Below are positions 54,872 through 64,000 of a stretch of 64,000 nt of DNA, piece by piece. A program made the translations under genes and the position numbers. How positions within the stretch are numbered: position 1 is the first letter of the stretch; the number at the start of each line of letters is the position of its first letter. Origin of the DNA: Modestobacter sp. VKM Ac-2985 (GTDB lineage: Bacteria; Actinomycetota; Actinomycetes; Mycobacteriales; Geodermatophilaceae); contig NZ_JAPVBI010000002.1 of the NCBI RefSeq assembly GCF_026967925.1, positions 1,293,628 through 1,357,627 on the forward strand, given 5' to 3'. A model generated the notes under the pieces. The model ran no database searches, had not been told where the DNA came from, and saw nothing but the letters and a program-made list of their open reading frames with translations.

Positions 54872-55143
54872 GCGCGCCCCGCCGGGTGGTCGCCCTGGTC
54901 GACGGCCAGGTGCAGGGCGTCGGCTACCGCTGGTTCGTGCGGCAGGCGGCGACCGGGCGTGGCCTGACCGGGTCGGCGACGAACCTGCCCGACGGCCGTG
55001 TGGAGGTCGTCCTCGAGGGCCCGGACGACGACGTGCGCGCCGCGCTCGCCGAGCTCTCCGGGCCGCGGGCCCCGGGTTCGGTCACCTCGGTGGAACACCG
55101 GGACGAGGACGTGCAGGCGGTGCCCGACTTCACCGTGAGGTGA
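54868..55143 (+). CDS. acyP: Acylphosphatase
   Basis: A 91-residue small alpha/beta enzyme hydrolysing acyl phosphates: [16 protein letters not shown] contains the catalytic Arg, and [16 protein letters not shown] the catalytic Asn. ATG overlaps the mutM stop. Same order (mutM-acyP-smc) as mycobacteria. Confidence 0.95.
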
Positions 55144-55187
55144 CGAAGACGACATCCCCCCGACACGGTGGCGTCGCCGCGCTGCCG

Positions 55188-55216
55188 TTGACCCAGGTCG
55201 GAGCTGGTGTCACCCT
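55188..55216 (+). promoter_or_regulatory. Promoter before the small coiled-coil gene
   Basis: TTGACC (55188-55193), 17-nt spacer, CACCCT (55211-55216); the start codon is 75 nt downstream. Confidence 0.5.
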
Positions 55217-55291
55217 GAGGACACCAGCCCGCGCAGACCGCCCTCCGGCGGTGCGACGGGACCTCTTCCTGCAGTGAAAGGCCGCTGAGCC

Positions 55292-55483
55292 ATGGCCAAG
55301 GCCCTGTTCGGTTCCGTCGTCGCTCCCCACGAGCTGCGAGCAGCCGAGGAGAACGCCGCCCTGCGGGCGAAGGTGCGCCGGCTCGAGGCGCAGCTCGCCG
55401 CCCTCCGCGAGGAGCGCGACGCGGCGATCGCCCGCGAGCTGCTCACCATGGCCCACGAGTCGGCCGACCCCGTCCTCGCTTAG
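55292..55483 (+). CDS. Small conserved coiled-coil protein
   Basis: 63 residues: MAKALFGSVVAPHELRAAEE followed by a leucine-heptad helix (ENAALRAKVRRLEAQLAALREE). Streptomycetes and relatives encode similar short proteins starting MAKALLG with a coiled coil. A GAAAGG lies 10 nt before the ATG. It has its own promoter-like sequence. Function unknown. Confidence 0.8.
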   Translation: MAKALFGSVVAPHELRAAEENAALRAKVRRLEAQLAALREERDAAIARELLTMAHESADPVLA

Positions 55484-55606
55484 ACCACCTCCGTCCCACC
55501 CACCTCTCCCGTGCACAGCGGGAGGGGCGATCGGCGTGTCGTGGGTGAGGATGGGGCTGCCCTGCGCTGAGCAGGACTGTCGTACCTCCCCGGGAGTCTC
55601 TCCACC

Positions 55607-58600
55607 GTGCACCTGTCCAGCCTGACGCTCAAGGGCTTCAAGTCCTTCGCGTCGCCGACGACGCTGCGCCTGGAACCGGGGATCACCGCCGTCGTCGGCC
55701 CCAACGGCTCGGGCAAGTCCAACGTCGTCGACGCCATCGCCTGGGTGCTCGGCGAGCAGGGCGCCAAGAGCCTGCGCGGCGGCAAGATGGAGGACGTCAT
55801 CTTCGCCGGCACCGCCGGCCGCCCGGCGCTGGGCCGGGCCGAGGTCACGCTCACGATCGACAACGCCGACGGCGCCCTGCCGATCGACTACACCGAGGTC
55901 TCGATCACCCGCCGCATGTACCGCTCCGGGGAGAGCGAGTACGAGATCAACGGCGACAAGGTGCGACTGCTCGACGTCCAGGAGCTGCTCAGCGACTCCG
56001 GCATCGGCCGGGAGATGCACGTGATCGTCGGCCAGGGGCAGTTGGACGCCGTGCTGTCCGGTCGCCCGGAGGACCGGCGGGCCTTCGTCGAGGAGGCAGC
56101 GGGCGTCCTGAAGCACCGCAAGCGCAAGGAGAAGGCGCTCCGCAAGCTCGACGCGATGCAGGCCAACCTCGACCGGCTCGGCGACCTGACCGCCGAGCTG
56201 CGCCGCCAGCTGAAGCCGCTGGGCCGCCAGGCCGAGGTCGCCCGCCGCGCTGCCGGGGTCCAGGCCGACCTGCGTGACGCCCGGCTCCGGCTGCTCGCCG
56301 ACGACCTGGTCGACCTGCGCGACGCACTGGACGCCGACATCGCCGACGAGACCGCCGCCCGCGCCCGGCGCGCGACCGTGGAGGCGGCGCTGGGCGAGGC
56401 CGCCGGCAGCGAGTCGGTGCTGGAGCGGCAGCTCGCCGCCGACGCCCCGGTGCTCGCGGCGGCCCAGGACAGCTGGTTCCGGCTGTCCACCCTCGCCGAG
56501 CGGTTCCGCAGCGTCGCCCAGCTCGCCGCCGAGCGGCACCGCCACCTAGCTGCCGTCCCCGCCGCCGCGCCCGGTGGCCGGGACCCCGACCAGCTGGACG
56601 CCGAGGCCGACCGGGTCGACGCCACCGAGCGCGAGCTGGCCTCCTCCCTGGAGGCCGAACGAGCCCGGCTGGAGACCGCCGTCGCGGTGCGCGGGGAGGT
56701 CGAGACGGCGCTGGCCGGGGCCGAGCGTGCGCTGGTCGCCGCCGCCCGGGCGCTGGCCGACCGGCGTGAGCAGCTGGCCCGGCTCTCCGGGCAGGCGGCC
56801 GCGGGCCGGTCCCGGGCCGCGGCCGGCGAGGCCGAGATCGAGCGGCTGGCCGCCGCCGCGACCGAGGCCGCCGACCGTGCCCAGGTGGCCGCCGACCGGC
56901 TGGCCGCCCGGCGCGACGAGCTGAGCGCGGACGCCGGCGGCGACGAGGGGCTGGCCGCCGAGCACGCCGCCGCCGTCACCGCGCACGCCGCGGCCGCCCG
57001 GGCCGTCACCGAGCTCACCGCGGCCGAACGGGCCGCGGAACGGGACCGGGCCGGCTGGCGGGCCCGCCGCGACGCCCTGGCCCTGGGTCTGGCCCCGGCC
57101 GACGGTGCCGCCGCGGTGCTCGCCGCGGGGCTGCCCGGGGTGCTCGGTCCGGTGCCCGACCGGCTGGCCGTCCAGCCCGGGGCCGAGGTCGCGCTGGCCG
57201 CTGCCCTCGGTGGGCTGGCCGACGCCGTCGTGGTCGACGGGGTCGAGCAGGCGGCCGCGGTGCTCACCCACCTGGCGAGCACCGACGGTGGCCGGGCGGG
57301 CCTGCTGGTGACCGGCGGGCTCCCGGCCGTCTCGCGGGACGGCTGGCCCGAGCTGCCCGACGGCGCCCGCTGGGCCCTCGACCTGGTGGCGGCCCCCGCC
57401 GAGCTCGCCCCTGCGCTGGCCCGGGCGCTGGAGCGGGTCGCGGTCGTCCCCGACCTGCCGGCCGCCGTCTCCCTCGTGCGCACGCACCCCCGCGTCCGGG
57501 CGGTCACCGACACCGGCGACCTGCTCGGCGCCGACTGGTCGGTGGGGGGCCAGGCGAACGCGCCGTCGGGGCTGGAGGTGCGGGCACGGGTCGACGAGGC
57601 CGCCGCCGAGCTGGACCGGGCGACCGCGCACGCCGCCGGCCTGGCCGAGGAGCTGGCCCGGGCCCGCGAGGACGCCGCGGCACGCTCGGCCGACGTCGAC
57701 GCTGCGCTCACCGCCCGGCAGGCCGGCGACCGGGCGCGTTCGGCCGCCGCCGCCGAACTGGCCGAGCTCGGTGCCGCGGCACGCTCTGCCGTGGCCGAGG
57801 CCGAGCGGCTGGACGCCGCGCGGGTGCGGGCCGAGCAGGCGCGGGAGCAGGCCGAGGCCGGGCTGGTCGAGCTGGAGGAGCGGCTGGCGGCAGCCGAGGC
57901 CGCGCCGATGGAGGAGGAGCCCGCGACCGACGAGCGCGACCGGCTGCGCGCCGAGGCGAGCACTGCCCGGCAGGCCGAGACCGAGGCCCGGCTGGCGGTG
58001 CGCACCGCCGAGGAGCGGGCCCGGTCGCTGGCCGGTCGCGCCGAGTCGCTGCGCCGGCAGGCCCGGCAGGAGCGGGCGGCCCGCGAGCGGGCCGCCGCTG
58101 CCCGGGTCGCCCGGGAGCGGGGCGCGCGGGTGGCTGCGGAGGTGCGGGCCGGTGCGGAGGAGGCGCTGACCCACCTGGCGACCTCCCTGGCCCGCGCGGC
58201 CGCCGAGCGGGACGCCCTGGCCGAGGCGCGCACCGGTCGGGAGGCCGAGCTGCTGGTGGTCCGGGCCCGCGTGCGGGAGCACACCGCGGAGCTCGACCGG
58301 CTCACCGACGAGGTGCACCGCGACGAGGTGGCCCGCGCCGAGCAGCGGCTGCGGATCGAGGCGCTGGAGTCCCGGGCGGCCGAGGAGTACGGCGTCGACC
58401 TGCCGACCCTGCTCGCCGAGTACGGGCCGGCCGCGCCGGTCGCCCCCACCCAGGCGCAGCTGGCCGCGGCGGAGGCGGCGGGGGAGCCGGAGCCCCAGCC
58501 GGTGCCCTACGACCGCAGCACCCAGGAGCGCCGGGCCGCCCGGGCCGAGCGGGACCTCGCCGCGCTGGGCAAGGTCAACCCGCTGGCCCTGGAGGAGTTC

Positions 58601-59173
58601 GCGGCCCTGGAGGAGCGGCACACCTTCCTGGCCACCCAGCTGGAGGACCTCAAGGCCACCCGCCGCGACCTGCTCACCGTGGTCCGCGAGGTGGACGCGC
58701 GCATCCACCAGGTCTTCGCCGAGGCCTTCGCCGACACGCAGCGGGAGTTCGAGCAGGTCTTCGCCACCCTCTTCCCCGGCGGGGAGGGGCGGATCTTCCT
58801 CACCGACCCGGAGAACCTGCTGACCACCGGTGTGGAGGTGGAGGCCCGGCCGCCCGGCAAGAAGGTCAAGCGGCTGTCCCTGCTGTCCGGTGGCGAGCGG
58901 TCACTGACCGCCGTGGCGCTGCTGGTCGCCATCTTCCGCGCCCGGCCCTCGCCGTTCTACGTCCTGGACGAGGTTGAGGCGGCGCTGGACGACGTCAACC
59001 TGGGCCGGCTGCTCACCCTGATCGAGCAGCTCCGCGACACCTCGCAGCTGATCGTGATCACCCACCAGAAGCGGACGATGGAGATCGCCGACGCCCTCTA
59101 CGGCGTGAGCATGCGCGGCGACGGCATCACCGGCGTGATCAGCCAGCGGCTGCGCGAGCTCGAGCCCGCCTGA
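55607..59173 (+). CDS. smc: Chromosome segregation ATPase SMC
   Basis: Condensin core subunit that extrudes and compacts DNA loops. 1188 residues: N-terminal Walker A GPNGSGKSNVVDA (~32-44), long coiled coil, hinge (~490-640), return coil, ABC signature LSGGERSLTAVA (1093-) and Walker B FYVLDEVEAALDD. The coils are very rich in Ala, Arg and Glu. GTG start; the kleisin subunits ScpA and ScpB are not in the window. Confidence 0.97.
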   Translation: MHLSSLTLKGFKSFASPTTLRLEPGITAVVGPNGSGKSNVVDAIAWVLGEQGAKSLRGGKMEDVIFAGTAGRPALGRAEVTLTIDNADGALPIDYTEVSITRRMYRSGESEYEINGDKVRLLDVQELLSDSGIGREMHVIVGQGQLDAVLSGRPEDRRAFVEEAAGVLKHRKRKEKALRKLDAMQANLDRLGDLTAELRRQLKPLGRQAEVARRAAGVQADLRDARLRLLADDLVDLRDALDADIADETAARARRATVEAALGEAAGSESVLERQLAADAPVLAAAQDSWFRLSTLAERFRSVAQLAAERHRHLAAVPAAAPGGRDPDQLDAEADRVDATERELASSLEAERARLETAVAVRGEVETALAGAERALVAAARALADRREQLARLSGQAAAGRSRAAAGEAEIERLAAAATEAADRAQVAADRLAARRDELSADAGGDEGLAAEHAAAVTAHAAAARAVTELTAAERAAERDRAGWRARRDALALGLAPADGAAAVLAAGLPGVLGPVPDRLAVQPGAEVALAAALGGLADAVVVDGVEQAAAVLTHLASTDGGRAGLLVTGGLPAVSRDGWPELPDGARWALDLVAAPAELAPALARALERVAVVPDLPAAVSLVRTHPRVRAVTDTGDLLGADWSVGGQANAPSGLEVRARVDEAAAELDRATAHAAGLAEELARAREDAAARSADVDAALTARQAGDRARSAAAAELAELGAAARSAVAEAERLDAARVRAEQAREQAEAGLVELEERLAAAEAAPMEEEPATDERDRLRAEASTARQAETEARLAVRTAEERARSLAGRAESLRRQARQERAARERAAAARVARERGARVAAEVRAGAEEALTHLATSLARAAAERDALAEARTGREAELLVVRARVREHTAELDRLTDEVHRDEVARAEQRLRIEALESRAAEEYGVDLPTLLAEYGPAAPVAPTQAQLAAAEAAGEPEPQPVPYDRSTQERRAARAERDLAALGKVNPLALEEFAALEERHTFLATQLEDLKATRRDLLTVVREVDARIHQVFAEAFADTQREFEQVFATLFPGGEGRIFLTDPENLLTTGVEVEARPPGKKVKRLSLLSGGERSLTAVALLVAIFRARPSPFYVLDEVEAALDDVNLGRLLTLIEQLRDTSQLIVITHQKRTMEIADALYGVSMRGDGITGVISQRLRELEPA

Positions 59174-59194
59174 CCCGGTTCGGGCCGCGCCCGG

Positions 59195-59968
59195 TCACGC
59201 GGCCGGCGCGGTGGACACCTCCAGGTCGACCAGCAGGGGGTGGTGGTCGGAGGCGCCGGCGCCGTCCAGCACCCGGGCACCGGTGACCGTCACGCCGGCC
59301 GACACCCACACCTGGTCGATCCGCATACGCGGGCGGCGGGCCGGGTGGGTGAGCCCCTGGCGGGCGTGCAGGGAGAAGCGCCAGGCCTGGTCGCTGCGGT
59401 CGGCCGCCGTCTCCCAGGCGTCGCGGAGGTGGGCGCGCAACGGGGCCAGCTCCGGGGCGGTGGCGTCGGCGTTGAGGTCGCCGACCAGCACCGCCGCCGC
59501 CCGCGGGTCAGCGTGCAGCTCGGCGACCGCCGCGGCCTGCCCGGCCCGGTCGTCGGCCGACCGGCTGGACAGGTGCGTTGTCGTCACCCAGAGCACCCCG
59601 CCGGCCAGCTCGACCCCGGTGCGCAGCGCAGTGCGCGGCTCCCCCCGCCCGGGCAGCCGGTGCAGGTCGGAGCCCAGCAGCGGGAGCCGGGACAGCACGG
59701 CGTTGCCGTACTGCCGGCGCTCGCTGCCCCGGCCCGGCTCGTCGATCGAGGGCCCCCACGCCAGCTCCATCCCCAGTGCGCGGGAGAGCAGCAGCGCCTG
59801 GTCGGCGTGCTCGCTGCGGTCGCCGAAGTGCCGGTCGACCTCCTGCAGGCAGATCACGTCGGCGTCCGCGGCCTGCAACACCTGGGCGAGGCGGGCCAGG
59901 TCGTGCCGGCCGTCGCCGCCGACGCCGTGATGGGTGTTGAACGTGACCAATCGAACCGCGCGGGACAC
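59195..59968 (-). CDS. Endonuclease/exonuclease/phosphatase-family protein
   Basis: A 257-residue EEP fold: VRLVTFNTHHGVGG at the start, QEVDR (metal-binding Glu), TTHLSS, LVGDLNADAT and the final GASDHHPLLVDL, all conserved catalytic positions. Could be a nuclease, phosphodiesterase or sphingomyelinase-like enzyme. The GTG start is chosen because homology begins there; GTG/ATG codons up to 60178 extend into AT-richer, non-conserved sequence. No secretion signal on this start. Convergent with smc. Confidence 0.85.
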   Translation of the reverse strand: MSRAVRLVTFNTHHGVGGDGRHDLARLAQVLQAADADVICLQEVDRHFGDRSEHADQALLLSRALGMELAWGPSIDEPGRGSERRQYGNAVLSRLPLLGSDLHRLPGRGEPRTALRTGVELAGGVLWVTTTHLSSRSADDRAGQAAAVAELHADPRAAAVLVGDLNADATAPELAPLRAHLRDAWETAADRSDQAWRFSLHARQGLTHPARRPRMRIDQVWVSAGVTVTGARVLDGAGASDHHPLLVDLEVSTAPAA

Positions 59969-60251
59969 TGGGTTGGGACCGGGGACGGATATGTTCACGA
60001 CGACCAGCGTGCCCGTCTCAACGTGCATCCACGTATGGGGCCTGCCGTCGTCCGCCCGGTCGGCGTCCCCGAGCGCCGGCCCGGCCACGCCGTGTATGCC
60101 CCGTGACCCGGACGCCGCTTTGACGACACATAAGCTCTCAAGGGACGTCTCCATGGTTTCGTCATGGACAAGGTGCACTCTGGTGATGAATCAGACGGGG
60201 GCAGTCGATGCGCGGATCGTGCCGGGGTAACTCGCGGCTGGCTGGGCCAGG

Positions 60252-60968
60252 GTGACCGGTTCCTCGAGCGAGGAGATGAATCGCTCGGCTGAGATGGAAC
60301 AGTTGCACGAATCGGTCGCCGCGGCGGTCATCGACGCCTATTACCCCGAGGCAGTCCGCTCCGGATCCGTGGCGCGGACCCGGGCCCAGATGGCGCAGTC
60401 GGCGGTCTCGCTGTTCGCGGCGGGGGCACTGGCCACTCTGACCGTCACATCCTTGCAAGACGAGCCTTGGCCGGTGAAGGGCCTGGCGTGTTTGGCGATC
60501 GCCGCGTGGCTGGCGTCAGCGGTCGGCTACACCCGAGCCGTCGGAAGTCCGGTGCCCTTCGATCATGAGACAACGCGCGCCCGGACGAGGTCCGAGCTCG
60601 TCTCGATCGTGCTGCAGCGCGCCCTTATGGAGAAGAAGTTCGTCGACGTCCGGCAGCGGTGGGCGGGTGTCCTGGCCATCGTGGCGCTCGCCGCAACGGC
60701 GCTGACAGTCAGCGTCGCGGTCTTCATCGGCCAGTCCTTGGAGCGGGAGTCGGCGACGCTCACCCTCACCGCTGAAGGGCAGCGGGCAGTGAGCGAGCTT
60801 TGTGGCCGGCCACTGGTCCGGCTGGAGGGGCGACTCCAAGTTGAGCCGGAGGATCTGCGCACGGTCAACGTCCTCACCGCGCCCGGGACGTGCGGCCCGG
60901 AACCCCAGGAGCTGGTCGTGACCCGCACGCTCGTCACGGCACTCCTCGTCGACGGAGGTGACGAATGA
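60252..60968 (+). CDS. Three-helix membrane protein of a putative conflict system
   Basis: A 238-residue protein not matched to a known family. An amphipathic N-terminal region (to ~45), then hydrophobic helices at ~50-68, 75-95 and 139-159, with a basic cytoplasmic-type segment between the second and third (~105-136), and a C-terminal ~75-residue domain with two cysteines (ELCGRPL, GTCGPEP). Its stop overlaps the ATG of the large NTPase gene, so the products are probably made together and may form a membrane-bound complex, with this protein as an effector pore or an anchor. GTG start; ATG 60276 is an alternative. Confidence 0.75.
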   Translation: MTGSSSEEMNRSAEMEQLHESVAAAVIDAYYPEAVRSGSVARTRAQMAQSAVSLFAAGALATLTVTSLQDEPWPVKGLACLAIAAWLASAVGYTRAVGSPVPFDHETTRARTRSELVSIVLQRALMEKKFVDVRQRWAGVLAIVALAATALTVSVAVFIGQSLERESATLTLTAEGQRAVSELCGRPLVRLEGRLQVEPEDLRTVNVLTAPGTCGPEPQELVVTRTLVTALLVDGGDE

Positions 60969-63900
60969 CACACCAACCCACTCACGTGCTTGTGATCATG
61001 CGCCCAGGTTTGACGGAGTCGGGCGCCGGACCCGAGCTGATAAAGGCCTGCTCGACGGCATTAGAGACGATTGCCACGGCCCAAGGAGGCTTGGCAGCGG
61101 TCCTGCTTGTTGGCTCCCTGACCAGCAATGCCGAAGCGGTCGAGTTTGAGGCGGTAGACCGCCTGCTCTCGGTGATCCGCGATGAGGCGGCGCGCCTGGC
61201 CGTGGCCGACGAACCGGAGTGCCCTGCACTGGCAATTCCTGGTCCCGATGACCGGGAGGCCCTGTCCCCCAAGCGTGCAGCATTGCGATCACTGCAGGGT
61301 TCGTGGGCGGCCACGGAAGGTGCACTTTTCCAAGGGGACGCGCCGGAGGAGTTGGCTGCCATCGAGTCGGCCTTCGGCCTCTACGAGCTGTGGTCAGCCG
61401 ACCAGCACGCGGCACTGCCGGGGTGGCACGGCGGCATGGTGCCGGGCGACGGGAGCTGCACGCTGGATATCGCCGGTTCGCGAGTCGGGATCATTTCGGT
61501 CAACTCTGCGCTCCGGATGCTGAGCTCCCCAGCCTCGCCGGACATCGCCACGTGCGGACCCGCTCAGGTGGCTGATGCAGTAGGCACCGACGACATCGGG
61601 ACTTGGGCCCGGGATCGTGACGCGGTGGTCCTGGTGGCGGCCTCCCGTGGCGCGGGCGAAAGCGGGACAGTCCCCATCGGCGATCATGTCGGTCTCTTCG
61701 CGGACGACGGGGCGGTCCCGGCTCAGGACCCCTTCACATGGCGGGCCACCGTGGGCTCATCGGTCGTGTGCCTGGTGGACGTTGCTCGCGCGGTGACGGC
61801 CCGTGGAACATCGGAGGAGCAACGGTCATCGCGTGGATTCGAACGTGAGCCAAGAGCGGACGGTGCAGCCGATAACCCTAATGAGGCGCCCGGCGAGCGG
61901 GGTCTGTCTCGGGACGACGCCACACGGAGCTTCACTAGAGACATAGCCACGGGCCGGGCCGCGCTGCTCGTTTTCGACGGATTGGCACAGCTCTGCAAGC
62001 CCAGCGGAGCGGCGATGTCCGACCGCGCCGAACTTCGAGGAAGGTTGCTTCGCCTTCTAGGAGTGGGCGACGACGATCGTCGAGCAGGCCTCGGCGACCT
62101 GCTCAGGTTTTCTTGTCAACGTGACCCCCAGGGGGCGCGGGCAGCTGTCCGAGAGGTCAGTGACATCGAGGAGTCAAGTCCCCTCGTGCGGCGGCTCGTC
62201 AGCGCCCCGTGGACCCGCGTTTACGACACGACGGGTTCGAGTGCCTACCGGCGGGTTCTCGACGAGGATTCGGCGCTGGCCAAGTCCGTGACCGTGACGG
62301 ACGCGCATGTCGAGTCCACGAGTGCACGACCCGGAGTCCGGCAAGTCATCGCCCTTAACGGCGAGGGGCAATGCGCGCCTGAGGCCGTAACGTTCAGCAT
62401 GTCCGCCGGCCATGGCAAGACTCCAAGGGACACCTGGCACAGACGTCTGTCCGCCGACTTCGTCACCCGGCCAGTCGTCGTCCTGGCGGCGACGACGGAC
62501 GATCCCGACCTCTGGGCCTACCTAGATCTGCGTGGTGATGCGGGTGCTGACGCGTCGCGACCGGCGCCGGCAACGTACCTGGTGTGTCCTCAAGTCGGAG
62601 CCGAGGCGCGGTGGCGGCTGGACGTCATGGGTGTGTCGCTCATCGAGGAGACCAGCGAAACGTTCGTTGCCGTGCGTCTCGCGCCCAATCGTCAGGAGAT
62701 CGCCATCGGCGGGGTCGCGCTAGCGCGAGCTGGGACTCGTGGTGAGCGCGCCAAGGGGATGCGCTTGCTCACTGCACTGCTGGGCGAGGTCGCTGCGGGC
62801 ACCGACCGCACCGTCGCCTCGGGCGATTTCCTCCGCGGTCATGATCCGTCGTGGCAGGACATCGCGACTGAGCGGCCGCCCCGGCTATCTAGGCTCGCCC
62901 AGCTGGCGGCGCGCGCCAGCGTGGAACCCGGCCAGCGTCAAGTGGTCCTCTTGCTCGGCAGGTCGGGATCGGGGAAAACGACGACGCTGATGCAGTTCGG
63001 TGCTGACCTCGTGCGCTCCGGGTTAACCGTCGGATGGGTGGACCGATCCTTCGGGGAAGGTCGCAAGATGCTCGTCGAGGAAGCGATTGACCTGTCAGTC
63101 GACGCGGTTCTGCTCGACGACGTCGACATGTTCGGGAGTGAGAGCCTGGAGACGATGCGGTTGCTCAACAGGAACGGGAAGGTCCTCGTCGTCGGCTCTG
63201 CGCGGAGGACCGCCCTGTACGCGCTCGAGGGCGTCCGCAGTTTCACCACCGTCGATCAGGACGAACCGTTGACCGACGACGACATCCGGAAGGTCATCGC
63301 CGCACTAACTAGGTATAGCTTGCTCAATAGCTTGCGAGGCGTGCGCCCCGCGGCCGCGCGAGTCCAGCGCTTTCACGAGCTGTCGAGGCGTGACTTGATG
63401 GCCGGCCTCATTCAGGTCGTCGAGGGTCAGCCCTTCGACGAGCGCGTTGCGTCCGAGTATCAGCAGCTGCAAGGCCTGGAGAGGGATGCGTACGGCATCG
63501 TCAGTGTCGTGAGTCACGTGAATAAGGCGCCGACGATCCCAGGCGAGCATCTCGTTCAGATGCTCGCCTCTGCCCCTCCCTACCGCGAGGCGCAGACAGC
63601 TATCGATGCGCTGATCGACCAACGTCTCATCGACGAGGACGTAGCGGGCGCTGTGAAGTGCCGGCACCGGGCGATCGCCGATCGCGTCGTGGAGACAATG
63701 GGTCGCGGCGGTGATGGTCTGGTCTCCGCAATGGGGGCCCTCCTGTTCTTCTATGCGGAGCAGGCACATGAGATCCGCGACCCCGGGGAACCGGATCGTC
63801 GGCAGATGATTGCCCTGCTTAATCACAATCTCATGCGGAAACTCGGCCTTCCGGCAGCAGACGTACGAAATCTGTACGACTCGGTACGTGAGTGGCTGGA

Positions 63901-64000
63901 GGAGGACCTCCACTACTGGCTCCAGCGTGGGTCCTATGAGGTTGAGATCGGTGACTTTCAGCGAGCCGCGGGATACCTCAGTCAGGCGCGCGGGTGCGTC
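60965..64000 (+). CDS. Pseudo-phosphoesterase / pseudo-SIR2 / STAND NTPase protein (3' partial)
   Basis: 1012 codons without a stop, running off the window. (1) ~1-270: calcineurin-like phosphoesterase pattern with metal ligands replaced: MRPG for SDLH at 12-15, GS for GD at 50-51, GPDD for GNHD at 93-96, AAS for HHP at 225-227. (2) ~330-575: SIR2-like pattern, also degraded: VFDGLAQ for the GAGxS loop, DTTGSS for TTNYD, NGEG for the catalytic HG; TDDPDLW is kept. (3) P-loop NTPase with Walker A GRSGSGKTTT (665-674), Walker B AVLLDDVD (714-721) and GSARR (744-748), as in STAND proteins. (4) Winged-helix-like stretch (~830-900). (5) From ~985, EIGDFQRAAGYLSQA, probably the first TPR-type repeat. 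Domain calls are by hand alignment. TTA codons occur at residues 33 and 687. Confidence 0.7.
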   Translation, partial: MTHQPTHVLVIMRPGLTESGAGPELIKACSTALETIATAQGGLAAVLLVGSLTSNAEAVEFEAVDRLLSVIRDEAARLAVADEPECPALAIPGPDDREALSPKRAALRSLQGSWAATEGALFQGDAPEELAAIESAFGLYELWSADQHAALPGWHGGMVPGDGSCTLDIAGSRVGIISVNSALRMLSSPASPDIATCGPAQVADAVGTDDIGTWARDRDAVVLVAASRGAGESGTVPIGDHVGLFADDGAVPAQDPFTWRATVGSSVVCLVDVARAVTARGTSEEQRSSRGFEREPRADGAADNPNEAPGERGLSRDDATRSFTRDIATGRAALLVFDGLAQLCKPSGAAMSDRAELRGRLLRLLGVGDDDRRAGLGDLLRFSCQRDPQGARAAVREVSDIEESSPLVRRLVSAPWTRVYDTTGSSAYRRVLDEDSALAKSVTVTDAHVESTSARPGVRQVIALNGEGQCAPEAVTFSMSAGHGKTPRDTWHRRLSADFVTRPVVVLAATTDDPDLWAYLDLRGDAGADASRPAPATYLVCPQVGAEARWRLDVMGVSLIEETSETFVAVRLAPNRQEIAIGGVALARAGTRGERAKGMRLLTALLGEVAAGTDRTVASGDFLRGHDPSWQDIATERPPRLSRLAQLAARASVEPGQRQVVLLLGRSGSGKTTTLMQFGADLVRSGLTVGWVDRSFGEGRKMLVEEAIDLSVDAVLLDDVDMFGSESLETMRLLNRNGKVLVVGSARRTALYALEGVRSFTTVDQDEPLTDDDIRKVIAALTRYSLLNSLRGVRPAAARVQRFHELSRRDLMAGLIQVVEGQPFDERVASEYQQLQGLERDAYGIVSVVSHVNKAPTIPGEHLVQMLASAPPYREAQTAIDALIDQRLIDEDVAGAVKCRHRAIADRVVETMGRGGDGLVSAMGALLFFYAEQAHEIRDPGEPDRRQMIALLNHNLMRKLGLPAADVRNLYDSVREWLEEDLHYWLQRGSYEVEIGDFQRAAGYLSQARGCV

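Follow-up and report, generated by a model that had tools for sequence, protein, structure and literature searches.

A 64,000-nucleotide (nt) stretch of the genome of Modestobacter sp. VKM Ac-2985 (the window, G000:C2:1293628-1357627) ends in two adjacent genes encoding a small membrane protein with three hydrophobic segments (the partner) and a large ATPase of the STAND type. We suggest, with about even confidence, that the pair is a horizontally moving conflict system of the Avs/STAND kind, in which the membrane partner would be the probable effector and phage the presumed target. The support is circumstantial, and comprises a match of the ATPase to PF25199, a SIR2-containing relative (L146) in the same genome, linkage of the two genes in all eight copies found, insertion into this genome, low G+C content (GC), patchy occurrence, correlated divergence of the two proteins, and NB-ARC/TPR genes that occupy the same site in other genomes. 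In many STAND sensors of bacteria the effector enzyme is part of the sensor itself. If our interpretation is correct, the pair would show how a STAND sensor whose ancestral enzyme is dead can pass its output on to a second protein that acts as effector, and would add a candidate membrane effector of no known family.

The partner gene (60252-60968, + strand; 238 amino acids (aa) as called from GTG) corresponds to L002:3880-4596 in the stretch that continues past the window end, for which window coordinate = L002 + 56372. Alignment of the eight copies showed that its homologues start nearer residue 16. It overlaps the ATPase open reading frame (ORF; 60965-64000+, + strand) by ATGA, confirming the coupling noted in an earlier, sequence-only reading of the window. 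The overlap is peculiar to the Modestobacter copy, with 2-6 nt between the genes in other copies. The window edge at 64000 cuts the ATPase gene after its first 1012 codons; beyond it the ORF is intact and complete (L002:4593-8006, stop at window-equivalent 64378, 1137 aa).

Architecture of the STAND ATPase

The core of the ATPase was identified by Pfam as nSTAND_NTPase5 (PF25199; residues 621-750, 62825-63214, + strand), with 93.8 bits where the cut-off is 34 (E = 1.1e-26), and two relatives scored 100.7 and 101.2 bits. No further Pfam family exceeded its cut-off in the protein; nSTAND3 gave 22.8 bits, under its cut-off of 27.2. Walker A (GRSGSGKT, residues 665-672, 62957-62980, +) and Walker B (AVLLDD, residues 714-719, 63104-63121, +) are retained as GK[ST] and DD in 8/8 aligned copies, and the first Walker A glycine is replaced by D in the seven Micromonospora copies (7/8). 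The P-loop NTPase with intact Walker motifs proposed from the sequence was thus borne out.

Residues 319-600 (61919-62764, +) form a SIR2-like domain without catalytic motifs. The profile of the eight copies aligned over residues 319-861 to a homologous SIR2_2-nSTAND5 protein of the same genome (L146:6438-8894, 818 aa) with an hhalign probability of 97.5 (E = 4.9e-12), a value that includes the shared NTPase. The middle domain alone gave a probability of 51 (E = 1.5e-4) when aligned to this protein's SIR2 part, nearly all of which was covered, and 37 (E = 3.5e-4) when the full protein was used. Among 38 other proteins of the window, taken as controls, the highest value was 3.3. Pfam returned no SIR2 match for the middle domain itself. 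Taken together, these comparisons give moderate support to a SIR2 origin of the domain.

The GAGAS stretch of the L146 protein, a form of what we take to be the GAGxS motif of the SIR2 site, faces stretches that retain the middle glycine alone in 8/8 copies. Its N-x-D faces T-x-S/T, again in 8/8 copies, so that TxNxD has lost both its Asn and its Asp. At the HG position, seven copies have NG and one has HG. According to the Avs5 report, that protein is functional with NG, and mutation of the Asn or the Asp of TTNxD abolishes its immunity (PMC12931631). Because the GAGxS and TxNxD motifs are lost here while Avs5 needs its Asn and Asp, we read the middle domain as a pseudoenzyme devoid of NAD-binding and catalytic motifs. 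The output of the pair would then probably not be NAD cleavage. An alternative is an Avs5-like NADase, in which the divergent domain still cleaves NAD via other residues and the membrane protein merely anchors or regulates the ATPase. The occurrence of NG or HG at a position where Avs5 works with NG, and the purifying selection acting on the domain, fit such an enzyme. With GAGxS reduced to its middle glycine in every copy, however, and replacements at the very Asn and Asp whose mutation inactivates Avs5, we regard it as quite improbable.

The likeness to Avs5 (AVAST type 5, SIR2-nSTAND3-repeats; PMC12931631) lies in the shared layout of SIR2-like domain, STAND NTPase and C-terminal repeat region, and in a local similarity below threshold at the C-terminus. 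This similarity was returned by PADLOC (E = 0.035, 10.1 bits) and NCBIfam (E = 0.12), and by PDB entry 9nah, a 'SIR2 family protein' (E = 0.2); the three results are not independent of each other. The NCBIfam Avs5 profile as such, which has a cut-off of 1000 bits, scored 10.2. In contrast to Avs5, the window ATPase is built on nSTAND5 rather than nSTAND3, has lost the SIR2 motifs, carries an extra N-terminal domain, and is always accompanied by a membrane partner in the copies found. The Avs-like STAND architecture seen in the sequence is therefore supported in outline. The winged helix and TPR-like repeats read there found no significant library match, and both labels are unproved.

The L146 protein is of the same build, with PF25199 and SIR2_2 both above their cut-offs. 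Unlike the window ATPase, it retains the GAGAS stretch and N-x-D, lacks domain 1, and has no such membrane partner among the adjoining called genes. It is encoded outside the window (G000:C2:910437-912893) and has a low third-position GC of 0.61. The predicted STAND conflict systems of Kaur et al. (2020, 2021) follow the same design logic as the pair. In the accessible parts of these surveys, calcineurin, SIR2 and inactive enzyme modules appear as effector or decoy parts of STAND and related conflict systems, and a pseudo-SIR2-nSTAND5 protein paired with a three-helix membrane protein is not described (PMC7159879, PMC8195603). A STAND design with variable or inactive modules is thus already known. 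Searches of the open-licence literature returned no description of the gene pair, nothing on PF25199/nSTAND5, nothing on STAND proteins with metallophosphoesterase or metallophosphatase plus SIR2, and nothing on Avs/STAND pseudoenzymes; for inactive SIR2, Avs5 was the only STAND protein, as judged by listings.

Domain 1 (residues 1-285, 60965-61819, +) has no recognised family in library searches. It had been read as calcineurin-like. Searched against Pfam at E 10, six N-termini yielded a single, irrelevant hit in one of them and nothing in the other five, and the one row returned by a PDB profile search was irrelevant too. Against nine PF00149 loci of the same genome, some of whose ORF calls may be in the wrong frame, hhalign probabilities were at most 0.9%; the best control, the neighbouring exo/endonuclease/phosphatase (EEP) protein, reached 28-29% and rested on one GD-containing stretch. 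Calcineurin-like proteins bind metal through the motifs DxH, GD, GNH, H and GHxH. Only a GD is present in domain 1, at one place that would suit a metal motif and in 5/8 copies, and it may be taken as a lead only. The calcineurin reading is not supported by these comparisons. The pseudoenzyme label of the earlier reading accordingly suits the SIR2-like middle domain, and lacks homology support for the first domain. Structure prediction of residues 1-625 from five sequences gave a mean predicted local distance difference test score (pLDDT) of 40.9, too poor for interpretation or a fold search.

Domain 1 is the fastest-evolving part of the protein within Micromonospora. The ratio of non-synonymous to synonymous rates (dN/dS) was below 1 in every domain in the five pairs computed. 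Across six Micromonospora pairs it was 0.35-0.42 in domain 1 and 0.15-0.23 in the rest, a roughly twofold difference, with domain 1 above the rest in at least 999/1000 bootstraps for each pair, the six pairs sharing sequences. The seven copies from Micromonospora share an identity of 0.38-0.65 across windows of residues 1-300 and of 0.75-0.89 across those of residues 841-1080.

Linkage, spread and insertion of the pair

Relatives of the ATPase were rare at every level searched: 2/200 genomes of the order (own included), 1/396 of the phylum (own only), 2/394 of the class by profile search, and 7/160 of Micromonospora. A profile of domain 1 plus the SIR2-like domain found 2/197 in the class. Of two genome-contig scans, the first found none and the second four Micromonospora records, apparently four of the seven. 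Searching the order with the partner recovered the same two genomes as the ATPase, plus a second locus of the Modestobacter genome (L007, E = 7.8e-4) that was taken as chance; no such ATPase adjoins it within the listed 3.3 kb. Strong PF25199 matches at L192 and L193, both in Micromonosporaceae, fall in shorter proteins (651 and 635 aa), and the match in G251 falls in a different protein of 1318 aa.

The partner gene lies directly upstream of the ATPase gene, on the same strand, in 8/8 distinct copies, with both frames open and adjacent in each. With dN/dS below 1 everywhere in the five pairs, these eight copies show that the pair is more than a chance arrangement, and the two genes do co-occur, as the earlier reading had asked to be tested. 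Nor was a fixed housekeeping context without linkage found; linkage is complete and the spread patchy, the Micromonospora location between pheT and argC being nonetheless constant.

In the Modestobacter genome the pair lies on an insertion of about 4488 nt (L002:3589-8076, window-equivalent 59961-64448), the left part of which occupies 59961-64000 of the window. By blastn, congeners align on both sides and have 4-14 nt instead, in 4/4 examined; a fifth, matchless in the order-level search, was left out of this comparison. In the four congeners, the PhoD-like and EEP genes that flank the insert adjoin. The GC of the insert is 0.659, against 0.751 in the flanks, and third-position GC is 0.83 and 0.74 for the pair, against 0.93 and 0.98 for two flanking genes. 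The pair's two genes are the only ones called inside the insert, and neither terminal repeats nor a target duplication are conspicuous; a transposon explanation was rejected for these reasons. A mobile, patchy distribution is supported (7/160 Micromonospora genomes, 2/200 in the order, insertion absent from 4/4 congeners).

Pairwise identities among the seven Micromonospora copies correlated strongly between ATPase and partner (r = 0.95) and weakly between ATPase and the flanking ArgC (r = 0.23), although the identities are not independent and the correlations are descriptive. In the pair L004/L018, ArgC is 96% identical, the ATPase 54% and the partner 63%. This suggests that the two genes are either exchanged as a unit independently of the flank, or diverging very fast there.

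Membrane partner and proposed response

Hydropathy analysis found three hydrophobic segments in the partner in 3/3 sequences examined. An AlphaFold2 model of moderate confidence (pLDDT 67.8) placed a leading helix before a first membrane helix (residues 39-67, 60366-60452, +) and a second (residues 73-98, 60468-60545, +), followed by a long helix that holds the third membrane segment (residues 113-161, 60588-60734, +) and a small alpha/beta domain (residues 166-233, 60747-60950, +). The three-helix membrane protein predicted earlier is therefore upheld. Cys184 and Cys214, in the C-terminal domain, are invariant in the eight copies, and the predicted topology would put this domain probably outside the cell. 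Pfam matched the partner to no family. The SLATT profile gave E = 2.2 in 1/8 members, which does not place it in that family, and a fold search with the model returned nothing at E 0.001. Its first-ranked row, NINJ2 (E = 0.37), and the NINJ1 row after it (E = 1.4) were not counted.

STAND proteins are nucleotide-switched and assemble upon a trigger. By analogy with the family, the ATPase would rest inactive until it binds an invader or damage cue, whereupon nucleotide exchange and assembly would proceed through the STAND core. The assembled ATPase would most likely act on the co-encoded three-helix protein, which may then impair or perforate the membrane and so stop the infected cell. With a SIR2 part that appears dead and a membrane protein next to every copy found, an output through the membrane is the simplest assumption. 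The earlier reading had assigned the response to the membrane protein or to the N-terminal domains; loss of the SIR2 motifs makes an NADase N-terminus unlikely, and the membrane protein the better candidate. The transmembrane components of known anti-phage systems are believed to act as suicide effectors (PMC9122126).

A more specific version, which we consider unlikely, is that of an inverted STAND receptor. Here the dead, enzyme-derived N-terminal modules would serve as a variable sensor or decoy, and the conserved C-terminal scaffold would be fitted to the dedicated three-helix protein, a new family of membrane-attacking effectors gated by protein contact, not by a nucleotide messenger.

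Several observations weigh against a conflict system, and against a variable sensor in domain 1. The partner matched no known effector family in profile and fold searches, and PADLOC and NCBIfam returned no defence family at a meaningful score. No relative was found in plasmids, phages or viral contigs. The pair stands alone in the window, with no defence island around it, and other occupants of the pheT-argC site look metabolic or regulatory by eye. For domain 1, the rate contrast was smaller in the most distant pair, L004/L018 (0.67 versus 0.39-0.49). Between the Modestobacter copy and the other seven, domain 1 (28-32% identity) is at least as well conserved as the SIR2-like domain (25-31%). 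Relaxed constraint on domain 1 would also look like a variable sensor.

STAND proteins also serve in regulation, and the pair could instead act in cell-envelope sensing or stress regulation rather than defence, the partner sensing the outside by its C-terminal domain and the STAND protein being the cytoplasmic transducer. The probably extracellular domain with two invariant cysteines would suit this role. The very patchy distribution, the insertion and low GC in the Modestobacter genome, and the discordance with ArgC argue against it, and we think it unlikely. A toxin-antitoxin-like or selfish addiction cassette, with the ATPase holding the membrane protein in check and any benefit to the host incidental, would explain why the two genes are closely spaced and why they move and diverge as one. 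The ATPase, however, retains a full switch design and a conserved C-terminus, is large for a plain antitoxin, and has no relative on plasmids; this explanation appears very improbable.

Insertion site and neighbouring genes

The rare cassette sits between housekeeping genes of an actinobacterium. Upstream are the EEP gene (identified by Pfam) and smc, and downstream a PhoD-like gene (Pfam), followed by ftsY, transporter genes, amtB, glnB, glnD and ffh, named from their translations. The EEP gene (59195-60178, - strand) lies at the insertion junction and reads on into the insert; it was called at 327 aa, against 253 aa in congener L082, and its start may have changed. An Rfam scan of window positions 55000-64000 and a sigma-70-type promoter scan of L002:3540-8130 returned no match.

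In Micromonospora the pair lies between pheT and argC in 7/7 copies, the gene names being read from translations. For the 30 argC loci that scored best across 81 genomes, pheT and argC were separated by 191 nt or less in 7 cases and by 701 nt in 1; in the other 22/30, two of which carry the pair, pheT lay beyond about 1.5 kb of argC. In 32 larger argC regions, chosen by hand and mainly non-empty, the gap was 1976-11086 nt in 26, 151-213 nt in 3 and 701 nt in 1, with no pheT inside the stretch in 2. A Pfam scan of the proteins of three site occupants identified NB-ARC/TPR STAND genes in two (L088 and L093). The pheT-argC interval is a variable site, and a defence hotspot is not demonstrated; it could be mined for more accessory systems.

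Across Micromonospora species (L083-L114), this interval ranges from about 150 nt to 11 kb and holds unlike gene sets. One set recurs, at L092:7391-11459 and in similar form in L093, L108 and L113, and consists of a HEAT-repeat-like protein (PF13646, E = 9.4e-6, just under the cut-off) with neighbours that have no Pfam families.

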